Shown here one piece after another: positions 8,316 through 12,719 of a stretch of 64,000 nt of DNA. The stretch's first letter is position 1; each line of letters starts with the position of its first letter. The position numbers were made by a program, and so were the translations under genes. The notes under the pieces were generated by a model. The model was not told the DNA's origin, did no database searches, and saw only the letters and a program-made list of their open reading frames with translations. The DNA is from a bacterium (GTDB lineage: Bacteria > Vulcanimicrobiota > Vulcanimicrobiia > Eremiobacterales > Eremiobacteraceae): positions 1-64,000 of the forward strand of contig CADDZI010000002.1 in NCBI GenBank assembly GCA_902812405.1. The letters run 5' to 3'.

Positions 8316-11300
8316 ATGTGGCTGACCCGCTTTGCCATTAAAAACTCGACCATCGTCACCCTGTTCTTTCTGGGGGTGGCTCTCTTTGGTCTGTTGGGCT
8401 ATCACTTCATGGGCCAAAACATCGAACCCAACGTGCAGTTCCCGATCGTCAGCGTCGAGGCCGATTACCCCGGGGCGAGTCCCGAAGAGATGGAGCGCCT
8501 GGTTGCCAAGCCCATCGAGGACCAGCTGCAAAACGTCTCCCGCGTCACGCACATTGACACAACGATTGAGGACGGCGTGGCCGTCATCATCGTTCAGTTT
8601 ACGCTTGGGACGGATGTCAACTTCGCCGCCAACGATGTACAGCAGGCGGTGGACGCGGCTCGCCTATATTTGCCGGCCGACCTCGACCCGCCGCTTGTCT
8701 CGAAGTTCAACACGGCCGGCCAGCCCGTGCTCATCGAGGCGGTGACGTCCTCCCTTCTCACGCCGGTCCAGCTCTCGACCATCATCAGTAACGAGATCAT
8801 TCCCGATTTGCGCAGCATCCACGGCGTGGGCGGTGCCTCGGCGGGAGGCTTGTTCCAGCGTCAGATAACGATCCAGCCGAACTTGGCCCAACTCAACGGC
8901 ATCGGCGGCACGCTGCTTGACGTCAACAATGCCGTGGCGGCGGGTAACGTGAGCCTGCCCGGCGGCCTGTTGACACAACCCTACCAGGAGTCGACGGTCG
9001 GCGTGCGAGCGGACATCCGCAGCGCACAGCAGATTGCGAGCGTGCCGCTTACGCTGCCCGGCCAGGCGGGCGGCGGCATCAAAGTGGGCGACGTGGCCAC
9101 CGTGGTGGACGGTTTTGCCGATCAGCGCTTCATCTCGAGCGTGAACGGGCGGCCGGGCATGGTGCTGCAGGTCATCCGCGACCCCAACAGTGACACGAAG
9201 TTGACGACCGCCGCCGTCCGCGCCGAGTTCGCCCGCCTTGCCCAGCGCTACCCGCAGCTGCATTTCGCCGAGCTCGAGGCGGACGCGGACTTCATGCACG
9301 ATTCGATCAACGGGGTCTTGCAGAACCTCTTCGAAGGCGTGCTCCTCACCGCCATCGTCTTGTTGCTGTTCCTGCACATTCTGCGCAGCGCCCTGGTGGT
9401 CATGATCGCCATTCCCACGTCGATTTTGGCAACGTTCCTCGTCATGTGGTCTCTCGGCATGACCGTGGACCTGCTCTCGCTCATGGGTCTGTCGCTGACG
9501 GTCGGCATTTTGGTCGACGATTCCATCGTCGTCTTGGAAAACATCACGCGGCATCGCATGATGGGCAAGGGGCCGGAGCAGGCGGCGATCGACGGGCGTA
9601 CCGAGATCGGCAATGCGGCCATCGCCATTACCTTGGTGGACGTCGTCGTGTTCGCCCCGATTGCCTTCATGTCGGGCATCGTCGGGCAGTTTTTGCGCGA
9701 GTTCGCGCTGGTCATCGTCGTTGCGACGCTGTTCTCGCTGCTCGTCTCGTTCACACTGACGCCGCTGCTTGCGGCACACTGGGCGCTGGTCAAGCGGCCG
9801 CGGCCGCTGCACGCGCCCGGCGCATCACGCTGGCTGCGCTTTGTGGGCGCCTTTCAGACGAAGTTTGAAGCTCTTCGCGCGCGCTACCATGACGTGTGGC
9901 TGCCGTGGGCCATGCAGCGTCCCAAGACGGTCATCCTCGGCTGTGCGGGCCTCGTCGTGGTGGCCATCATCGTCTTCGCATCGCAGATCATCCCGTTTGA
10001 ATTCCAGCCGGTCACGGACTGGGGCTTTGCGATCATCGACGTCACGTACCGGCCGGGCACTCCGATTGCCGTCACCGCCGCCGGTATCGTGCGCCTGGAG
10101 AAGGCGCTCATGAAATTGGACGGCGTCAAGGACATCAACGGGACGGCAGGCGAGAAGTCAGGCGTCACGGCGGGCAACGTGGGCGAAATCTTCGTGACAC
10201 TGGATCCCAGCAAGCGGCACAACGAGGATGAGATCATCGCCGCGGCCTCCAAGCTCGGGTATCTTGTCCCGGGAGCCCGTATCGACGCGTCGCATGGGCA
10301 AAACGGCGGGCAGTCGCCGATCCAGTACACGTTGACCGGACAATCCAATGACGCCGTCGAGGCGGCCGCCGAGAAGCTCAAGAACTTCATCGCCTCACTG
10401 CCCGGCGCAACCAACGTGCAGACGAGCACCGAGGTGGCGGGACCGCGTCTGGAAATAGACGTGGACAACGCGCGGGCAGCGCTGCTGGGCGTCTCTCCGC
10501 AGGATGTCGCAACCACCGCGCGGGCGGCCATCGGCGGTGTCATCGCGACACGTGTCCGCATGCCCGAGGGACTCATCAACGCCGTCGTCCAGCTGCCGCC
10601 GGACGCACGCAACGATGTGAACCAGCTGCGCGCGGTGATGGTGCGCTCCGACAACGGAACGTTGGTCCCCTTAAGCGATGTGGCGACCTTCCGCTGGACG
10701 CAGGAGCCGACGCAGCTCAACCGCGAGGATCGCCAGCGCATCGTGACGGTCAGCGCCGACACGAAGAACAGCGCGCCGATCAGCGTCCTGACGAGCAAGA
10801 TTGCCGCCGCGATCAAAGCTCCCAACTTCTTCCCGCCTGGCGTGAGCCTGAAAGAGGGTTTAGGCAGCGATGCGCAGCTGCTCAGCGAGACCGTACAGAA
10901 GATCGGCATCGCGCTCTTGACGTCGTTCGTCCTCATCTACATGCTGCTCGTCGTCCTGTACCGCAGTTACCTGTCGCCGTTCATCATCATGCTCTCTGTG
11001 CCGCTGGCCTTCATCGGCGTGGCCTTCATGCTGGCCGCCATCAACGTCTTGCACGGCCTCTTCCCGCAGGTTCGGTACTTCCAGGGCCAGACGCTGAATC
11101 TGTTCTCGATGCTCGGCATCGTCATGCTGACCGGTCTGGTGGCCAAAAACGGCATCCTGCTGGTCGACTACGCCAACACCCTGCGCAAACGCGGGCTGAG
11201 CATCCGCGAGGCCATGCGGGAATCCGCCTCGGTCCGCTTCCGGCCGATCATCATGACGACCGCCTCGATGATCTTCGGCATGCTTCCGCTGGCGTTGGGC

Positions 11301-11534
11301 ATCACGGAGGGCGCCGAATTCCGCAAGTCCATCGGTACGGTCATCATCGGCGGCCTGTTGAGCTCGCTCTTACTGACCCTGTTCCTCATTCCCGTCATCT
11401 ACGTCGGACTCGTGGGCTGGATGGAGCGGTACCACGAGCGGCGGGTGCAGCGCCTGGTGGCACTGGCCGACGAGGAAGAAGAAGAGGAAGAACCGGCGGC
11501 GCATTTGCCGGAGCGCGTCACCGCGCATCTATAG
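8316..11534 (+). CDS. RND-family multidrug/heavy-metal efflux permease (AcrB/HAE1-like)
   Basis: A 1072-residue inner-membrane proton-driven exporter subunit. It has the duplicated RND layout: a membrane helix near residue 12, a large periplasmic loop (PNVQFPIVSVEADYPGASPEEME at its start), a bundle with the conserved GILVDDSIVVLEN helix about residue 395, then a second loop and a second bundle with GLVAKNGILLVDYAN. The acidic run near the C-terminus (DEEEEEEE) is unusual. No membrane-fusion or TolC-like gene is adjacent, so it probably pairs with partners encoded elsewhere. Confidence 0.92.
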   Translation: MWLTRFAIKNSTIVTLFFLGVALFGLLGYHFMGQNIEPNVQFPIVSVEADYPGASPEEMERLVAKPIEDQLQNVSRVTHIDTTIEDGVAVIIVQFTLGTDVNFAANDVQQAVDAARLYLPADLDPPLVSKFNTAGQPVLIEAVTSSLLTPVQLSTIISNEIIPDLRSIHGVGGASAGGLFQRQITIQPNLAQLNGIGGTLLDVNNAVAAGNVSLPGGLLTQPYQESTVGVRADIRSAQQIASVPLTLPGQAGGGIKVGDVATVVDGFADQRFISSVNGRPGMVLQVIRDPNSDTKLTTAAVRAEFARLAQRYPQLHFAELEADADFMHDSINGVLQNLFEGVLLTAIVLLLFLHILRSALVVMIAIPTSILATFLVMWSLGMTVDLLSLMGLSLTVGILVDDSIVVLENITRHRMMGKGPEQAAIDGRTEIGNAAIAITLVDVVVFAPIAFMSGIVGQFLREFALVIVVATLFSLLVSFTLTPLLAAHWALVKRPRPLHAPGASRWLRFVGAFQTKFEALRARYHDVWLPWAMQRPKTVILGCAGLVVVAIIVFASQIIPFEFQPVTDWGFAIIDVTYRPGTPIAVTAAGIVRLEKALMKLDGVKDINGTAGEKSGVTAGNVGEIFVTLDPSKRHNEDEIIAAASKLGYLVPGARIDASHGQNGGQSPIQYTLTGQSNDAVEAAAEKLKNFIASLPGATNVQTSTEVAGPRLEIDVDNARAALLGVSPQDVATTARAAIGGVIATRVRMPEGLINAVVQLPPDARNDVNQLRAVMVRSDNGTLVPLSDVATFRWTQEPTQLNREDRQRIVTVSADTKNSAPISVLTSKIAAAIKAPNFFPPGVSLKEGLGSDAQLLSETVQKIGIALLTSFVLIYMLLVVLYRSYLSPFIIMLSVPLAFIGVAFMLAAINVLHGLFPQVRYFQGQTLNLFSMLGIVMLTGLVAKNGILLVDYANTLRKRGLSIREAMRESASVRFRPIIMTTASMIFGMLPLALGITEGAEFRKSIGTVIIGGLLSSLLLTLFLIPVIYVGLVGWMERYHERRVQRLVALADEEEEEEEPAAHLPERVTAHL

Positions 11535-11673: not shown

Positions 11674-12222
11674 ATGAAAATCGTGCTCATCGTAGCCATC
11701 GCGGTGCTGGCGGCGGCTGCCGCGTTCATCGGCCTTAATCGTCCGGCGAAGGCTCTGGGCGTCGGCGACACGGCGCCGGACTTCACGGCCGACTCCGCGC
11801 TGGACGGCAAAATCGTCCCCTTTTCCCTACAGGATGCCTTGGCCAAGCACGCGGTCGTCCTGTACTTCTTCCCCAAAGCGTTCACCCAGGGCTGAACCAT
11901 CGAGGCGCAAGCCTACGCCGCCAGGTTGGCGGACTTTCGCAAACTCGGTGCCGAGGTGGTCGGCGTGTCCACGGATGATGCGCACACGCTGTTGAATTTT
12001 CAAACTAAGCTCAACGCCCCGCAGCAGATGGTCAGCGATGTCGAGCACAAGATTGTCAACGCCTACGGCGTGGCTTTCGGGATGGGCAACCTGACCGTCG
12101 CCAAGCGGCAGACGTTCGTCATCGGCAAAGATGGACGCATTCTCTTCACCTATTTCGATTGGAGTCCGTTGACGAACGTCAACAAGACCTACGAGTGGCT
12201 CAAGGCACACCCGCAAAACTGA
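11674..12222 (+). CDS. Exported peroxiredoxin, probable selenoprotein (Sec at codon 74)
   Basis: Reading through the in-frame TGA at 11893-11895 gives a 182-residue AhpC/TSA-type peroxiredoxin. The TGA sits exactly at the peroxidatic cysteine: FFPKAFTQG-U-TIEAQAYA corresponds to the family motif F.P.AFT..C..E. A hydrophobic signal sequence (residues 3-22) precedes the domain (GDTAPDFTAD), so it should act outside the cytoplasm. The conceptual protein contains no cysteine, so there is no resolving Cys and reduction must come from a partner, plausibly the TlpA-like protein whose gene overlaps its 3' end. A hairpin suitable as a bacterial SECIS follows the TGA. The alternative is a nonsense mutation or sequencing error of TGC to TGA, which neither the intact downstream frame nor the hairpin favours. 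Confidence 0.82.
11918..11932 (+). promoter_or_regulatory. Putative bacterial SECIS hairpin
   Basis: CCGCCA-GGT-TGGCGG forms a perfect 6-bp stem with a three-nucleotide loop starting GG. The loop begins 29 nt after the in-frame TGA (11893-11895). Known bacterial SECIS elements have a small apical loop with G among its first two bases, placed about 16-37 nt downstream of the UGA, so position, loop base and stem all fit. The hairpin lies inside the coding sequence, as expected for bacteria. Confidence 0.7.
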
Positions 12223-12719
12223 CGGCGGTCTCGTTCGCGGCAGCGGCCCTGCTCGTCGCCGGTATCGCTCTGGCAGCCGCGCCGCCGCGCGTGGGCTCGC
12301 CAGCGCCGGCTTTTTCCCTGCCGCTCGTTGCCAACGGCCAGGGGGCCATCTCGCTTGCCTCTCTGCACGGGCATGCGGTCTACCTGAACTTCTTTGCCTC
12401 GTGGTGCCAGCCGTGCGAGACCGAAGTGCCGTACATCAGCCGGCTGGCGCGGGAATATGCCAAGCGCAATGTCGTCGTCATCGGCATTGACGAGCTCGAG
12501 CCTGCCGCCCGCGCGCAAGCTTTTGCCCGCGCGTATCACCTCTCGTATCCCATCGCGCTCGACAATTCGGGGACGGTCGGCGGCGACTACGGCCTCGTGG
12601 GGTTGCCGCTGCACGTCTTCATAGCAGCCAACGGTAGGGTTGCGCAGTACCGTCCGGGGGAGTTATCGGAGGATCAGGTCCGAACCGCTCTCAACGCCAT
12701 AGCCGGCCCGGCACGCTAG
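12195..12719 (+). CDS. TlpA/ResA-like exported thioredoxin
   Basis: A 174-residue thiol-disulfide oxidoreductase. It has a hydrophobic N-terminal export signal (AVSFAAAALLVAGIALAAA), then a thioredoxin fold with the active site FFASWCQPCETEVPY (C71, C74) and the cis-Pro region GLVGLPLHVF. It should work outside the cytoplasm as a reductant. GTG 12195 places the signal at the N-terminus and overlaps the peroxiredoxin gene by 28 nt; ATG 12159 is a longer alternative. Coupling to the selenoperoxiredoxin, which lacks its own resolving thiol, suggests this protein regenerates it (inference). Its TAG stop shares the palindrome CTAG with the stop of the convergent DUF202 gene. Confidence 0.85.
   Translation: MAQGTPAKLTAVSFAAAALLVAGIALAAAPPRVGSPAPAFSLPLVANGQGAISLASLHGHAVYLNFFASWCQPCETEVPYISRLAREYAKRNVVVIGIDELEPAARAQAFARAYHLSYPIALDNSGTVGGDYGLVGLPLHVFIAANGRVAQYRPGELSEDQVRTALNAIAGPAR

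Follow-up and report, generated by a model that had tools for sequence, protein, structure and literature searches.

A cysteine-free, probably exported selenocysteine peroxiredoxin linked to a TlpA-like gene in Candidatus Eremiobacterota

A 64,000-nt stretch of DNA (the window) from a Candidatus Eremiobacterota metagenome-assembled genome (MAG; 2.32 Mb, 96.65% complete) was found to carry a peroxiredoxin gene in which a UGA codon, almost certainly decoded as selenocysteine (Sec), stands in place of the peroxidatic cysteine (CP). The product is probably an exported 1-Sec peroxiredoxin, PrxQ/AhpE-like and not PrxU, whose oxidized Sec would be reduced by a TlpA-like protein instead of by an internal resolving Cys. 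Coordinates of the features are given in Table 1.

Table 1. Features of the Sec peroxiredoxin locus (window positions)
Feature	Position	Strand	Description	Evidence
Peroxiredoxin gene, Sec-containing, product probably exported	11674..12222	+	182 aa; ATG start; TGA stop 12220-12222	Pfam, homologues, AlphaFold2
Putative N-terminal export signal	11674..11757	+	approximately residues 1-28	hydrophobic helix and A-x-A by eye
Sec codon	11893..11895	+	TGA; peroxidatic position U74; motif PKAFTQGU	12 genomes with Sec versus 96 homologues with Cys
Bacterial SECIS hairpin	11918..11932	+	CCGCCA-GGT-TGGCGG; 6-bp stem, GGU loop	comparison; bSECIS limits (PMC13188914)
Codon 114	12013..12015	+	Asn; site of the second (presumed resolving) Cys in Cys homologues	homologue comparison
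TlpA/ResA-like thiol-disulfide oxidoreductase gene, product probably exported	12195..12719	+	CQPC	Pfam AhpC-TSA/Redoxin/Thioredoxin; conserved linkage

Reading frame and predicted protein

The in-frame TGA is the sole interruption of the peroxiredoxin frame, and read-through gives a protein with U74 and zero Cys. Pfam models AhpC-TSA (105.3 bits, cut-off 26) and Redoxin (71 bits) matched both sides of the TGA, and the combination of a PF00578 domain with FTQGU, a TxxU motif, is that of Sec peroxiredoxins. An earlier sequence-only reading had placed the TGA exactly at the peroxidatic Cys, followed by 108 codons (residues 75-182) in a protein without any Cys, and these points were borne out. In the AlphaFold2 model, which is that of a peroxiredoxin (pLDDT 91.9), residue 74 starts helix 72-83. 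Nearest solved folds included BCP/PrxQ proteins, among them Sulfolobus Bcp1 (3drn, TM 0.75/0.90) and Bcp4.

The hydrophobic N-terminal stretch ending in A-x-A suggests export; homologues carry similar leaders, and helix 4-18 of the model was of low confidence. It is possible that the stretch serves as an uncleaved anchor. Directly upstream of the peroxiredoxin lies a gene for an RND-type efflux pump (AcrB family, 735 bits; window 8316-11534).

Sec machinery of the source genome

The source genome (G000) encodes a tRNA-Sec (C55:10041-10131, 75.7 bits; ARAGORN tRNA-SeC, anticodon TCA), selA (C43:6997-8094, 459 bits), selB immediately 3′ of selA (C43:8214-10127, 332 bits over the frame) and a Sec-type selD (C16:30484-31434). 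The sequence-only reading had been made to hinge on selA, selB, selC and selD in the same genome; all four, the set that marks a bacterial selenoprotein producer, are present. SelA was present in 86 of 101 related genomes. Among genomes carrying the Sec gene, neither selA nor tRNA-Sec was found in G001, a fragmented MAG, while G010 and G077 yielded selA and no tRNA-Sec over the cut-off.

SelD of the source genome is itself a Sec protein (active site SSCAGUASK; L018:1501-2454, G000:C16), with a hairpin GCGAG-CGTG-CTCGC 3′ of its TGA. A second selenoprotein candidate, thioredoxin-like, adjoins the tRNA-Sec (L001:2454-3032, G000:C55; ...LVSPTUPLCLRG..., TGA 2640-2642), with an arsR-like regulator and a merT-like gene on its 5′ side. 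When the source genome was scanned with a SECIS-like pattern, three matches came up, against two for the reversed control pattern, and no other selenoproteins were identified. An Rfam search of the window at gathering cut-offs returned tRNAs only.

Sec and Cys in homologues

TGA was found at the same codon in 11 further Eremiobacterota genomes (12 with the source) of two families (L051-L053 are the records of three of the 11): nine in the family of the source genome, f1 (G001, G002, G004-G007, G010-G012), and two in family f3 (G039 and G077, the G077 gene lacking its 5′ end at a contig start). Cys was present at the Sec74 position in 96 fetched homologous loci from class members and Proteobacteria. 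Alignment of homologues thus gave the Cys/Sec alternation at codon 74 that had been anticipated, with TGA-bearing homologues in other genomes and Cys opposite the TGA. TGA matches in G022 and G059 were rejected as members, being other Prx-like proteins and not of this type. L168 (G022:C74), from a family f3 genome, carries UGAC (VVLYFYEGAGUGACQTQ) and is a candidate selenoprotein of another Prx-like kind.

A variant code, in which TGA is read as Trp or another residue, would explain the open frame and nothing more. It is refuted by the stop codon of the same gene, itself TGA, by the presence of tRNA-Sec, SelA and SelB, and by homologues, in which the aligned residue is Cys and not Trp; its probability is negligible.

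In the tree, the f1 Sec genes formed one strongly supported group (100/99) with a single Cys gene inside. This gene, L028 of G009, groups with its Sec congeners L026 and L027 (100/98) and is a Sec-to-Cys reversion. It has lost the SECIS stem and has neither a second Cys nor a TlpA gene; selA and tRNA-Sec are retained in G009. Sec genes of f1 and f3 did not come out as a single clade (AU p 0.003), but since the branch of L049 is very long, one and two origins of Sec are both possible.

SECIS hairpin

Counted from the TGA, the hairpin covers nt 23-37; its folding energy is -9.9 kcal/mol (z -2.4), and its apical loop lies 28 nt from the UGA. Published bSECIS limits are an upper stem of 4-16 bp, a loop of 3-9 nt with G in the first two loop positions, and 16-37 nt between UGA and loop (PMC13188914). 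The 6-bp hairpin with GGT loop reported in the sequence-only reading, starting 23 nt after the TGA, was therefore confirmed as lying within these limits, as do all ten f1 Sec genes (6-bp stem, 3-nt loop with G in first place, distance of 28 nt). L049 has bSECIS geometry with an 8-bp stem and a 5-nt loop.

Taken alone, the hairpin is unremarkable and weak evidence, because stems of at least 6 bp with SECIS geometry follow approximately 22% of ordinary codons in this GC-rich window and the 48-nt fold has a z of only -1.1. It was accordingly rejected as proof of a SECIS by itself. Comparison across genomes changes this. The hairpin begins at nt 23 after the TGA in 10/10 f1 Sec genes with an invariant stem, CCGCCA/TGGCGG, while the loop varies (GGT, GGC, GTC or GTT). 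Synonymous codons are fixed within it: Ala82 GCC, Ala83 GCC and Ala86 GCG in 10/10 genes each, and residue 84 as AGG in all eight genes with Arg (Ser AGT in the other two). AGG is rare (of the 287 Arg codons in genes of the window, 10 are AGG), and CGN codons are used freely for Arg118 and Arg145 of the same genes. Synonymous-codon identity above expectation was 0.45 at the hairpin versus 0.07 elsewhere, the ten genes being related and not independent draws; their other columns do vary. The two f3 genes keep the lower stem with one C-G pair changed to U-A, a compensatory change; their stem is extended and the loop reads CGUGC. As this covariation concerns one pair only, codon freezing is the stronger argument for a SECIS. 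The recurrence of TGA and hairpin at the same place in ten family genomes with near-frozen synonymous codons, together with the compensatory change in f3, raises the hairpin far above chance and makes it convincing.

In one genome without context, a pseudogene, a sequencing error or a premature stop with a short product would look the same. The cross-genome comparison refutes this explanation, to which we give practically no weight: the same TGA recurs in 12 genomes, frames are intact on both sides, the SECIS is conserved and the Sec machinery is present.

Loss of the second cysteine

In Cys-type relatives, CP lies in the motif GCTxEAH and ECRSKF holds a second Cys (CP+40), at a site located just after helix 103-113 of the AlphaFold2 model. 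This second Cys was present in 95 of 96 Cys-type sequences and in none of 11 full-length Sec-type sequences, the single Cys type without it being the revertant L028. This distribution suggests that the Cys types are intramolecular 2-Cys enzymes and that the Sec types are 1-Sec enzymes. The window protein, having no Cys, lacks the resolving Cys of a 2-Cys peroxiredoxin.

The TlpA-like partner

The TlpA-like gene in the window starts either at the canonical GTG 12195 or at a non-canonical CTG 12219 within a CTGA stop-start overlap; its product scored 103 bits with the ResA model, under the cut-off of 170. A TlpA/ResA-like gene with CxxC and a leader lies directly 3′ of the Sec gene in seven of the 12 Sec genomes (G000, G001, G005, G006, G007, G010 and G011), and in six of these unfused operons the stop and start codons overlap as NTGA (ATGA or GTGA in homologues). 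In G004 (L030), a single MAG, TlpA is fused in frame to the Sec peroxiredoxin, and the TlpA portion lacks a separate leader. Within f1, a close TlpA orthologue occurs in exactly the eight genomes in which the Sec gene is linked or fused; both genes are missing from G003, G008 and the incomplete G013. TlpA followed none of the 96 Cys-type loci within the 1.5-3 kb downstream examined (some loci being shorter). Of the earlier description as exported, Cys-free and TlpA-coupled, the last two parts thus stood, the TlpA link proving stronger than first read (linkage conserved, genes fused once), while export is suggested by the leader sequence.

In the downstream stretch examined, TlpA was absent from four of the 12 Sec genomes, two belonging to genus g3 and two to family f3 (G077 not scored), and reductants other than TlpA are therefore possible. 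In genus g3 the peroxiredoxin occurs without a close TlpA orthologue, and TlpA orthologues of family f3 are present and unlinked. Low-molecular-weight thiols, or else a thioredoxin serving the envelope generally, might accordingly reduce the Sec peroxidase, with the TlpA linkage reflecting shared regulation or other TlpA targets; besides g3 and f3, this would suit the source genome, which has at least one other TlpA paralogue. We consider it unlikely given the exact co-occurrence within f1, the translational overlap and the in-frame fusion.

Electrons might also flow in reverse, the Sec protein using peroxide to oxidize TlpA and thereby to form disulfides in exported proteins, as GPx7 and Prx4 do with PDI. 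The architecture is the same, a 1-Sec peroxidase paired with a dedicated thioredoxin-fold protein, and the partner bears a leader sequence. TlpA/ResA-type proteins are, however, generally reductants, fed by CcdA, which makes reverse flow very improbable.

Proposed mechanism

Reduction of the Sec protein by TlpA being preferred, the following scheme is proposed. SelA, SelB and tRNA-Sec of the cell almost certainly decode UGA 11893 as Sec, guided by the SECIS hairpin just downstream. By family knowledge, Sec74 would reduce peroxides in the cell envelope and be converted to selenenic acid. Where an internal Cys 40 residues on would resolve oxidized CP in Cys-type relatives, the Sec form has lost that Cys; linkage and fusion suggest that the CxxC of the TlpA-like protein attacks the oxidized Sec, giving a selenenylsulfide, and then resolves it to regenerate Sec. 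DsbD_TM/CcdA-type proteins are present, and by such a membrane protein TlpA may be recharged.

On balance, we favour a dedicated envelope two-protein peroxidase unit in which Sec replaced CP, the resolving Cys was discarded, and TlpA, coupled in translation and in one case fused, took over its role. The family would then record how Sec was gained and, in one instance, how it reverted to a 1-Cys form without these compensations.

Relation to known systems

Sec peroxiredoxins (TxxU, COG1225/PF00578) are an established selenoprotein family (PMC1088965, PMC1794560, PMC9312934, PMC13188914), numerous already in the Sargasso Sea data (PMC1088965). The sequence-only reading was right that they are established, yet its "few anaerobes" was too narrow (PMC1088965), and the window protein is not a PrxU. 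It shares with known members the TxxU active site, the PF00578 fold and a UGA with bacterial SECIS, and differs in its export leader, zero Cys and translational coupling or fusion to a TlpA-like protein.

PrxU of Eubacterium acidaminophilum is likewise a thioredoxin-fold peroxidase whose peroxidatic residue is Sec; this assignment was rejected at 59.8 bits against a cut-off of 270 (NF040737), with a model length of 233 versus 182 aa. The PrxQ/BCP equivalog NF006960 scored 75.7 against a cut-off of 140, although the fold is close to Bcp proteins. PKAFTQGU fits the active-site motifs of both PrxQ, (D/A)xTxGC, and AhpE, PxAF(T/S)xxC (PMC5302317). Unlike PrxQ/BCP and AhpE, the window protein has Sec for CP and a leader, and it lacks a resolving Cys at +5 or any other site. 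For animal glutathione peroxidases, loss of the resolving Cys after CP changed to Sec, with later Sec-to-Cys reversion, has been proposed (PMC8614756). The present family resembles these Sec-type enzymes in both respects, but is a different family with a bacterial SECIS and a dedicated linked partner.

A search of the openly available literature found no paper on selenocysteine in Eremiobacterota. Cys-free exported Sec peroxiredoxins may occur elsewhere, as the outside comparison covered the best 80 of 272 relatives.

Significance

Sec peroxiredoxins as such being known, what is new, real and well supported here is the Cys-free, leader-bearing, TlpA-coupled form. It adds a probable envelope selenoprotein to the phylum Candidatus Eremiobacterota. 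A Sec-to-Cys change in peroxiredoxins is visible here, against zero counted in a 2006 survey (PMC1794560). One protein family offers a natural series of 2-Cys, 1-Sec with TlpA, TlpA fusion and 1-Cys revertant, by which it becomes directly testable what Sec buys and which residues it makes dispensable.
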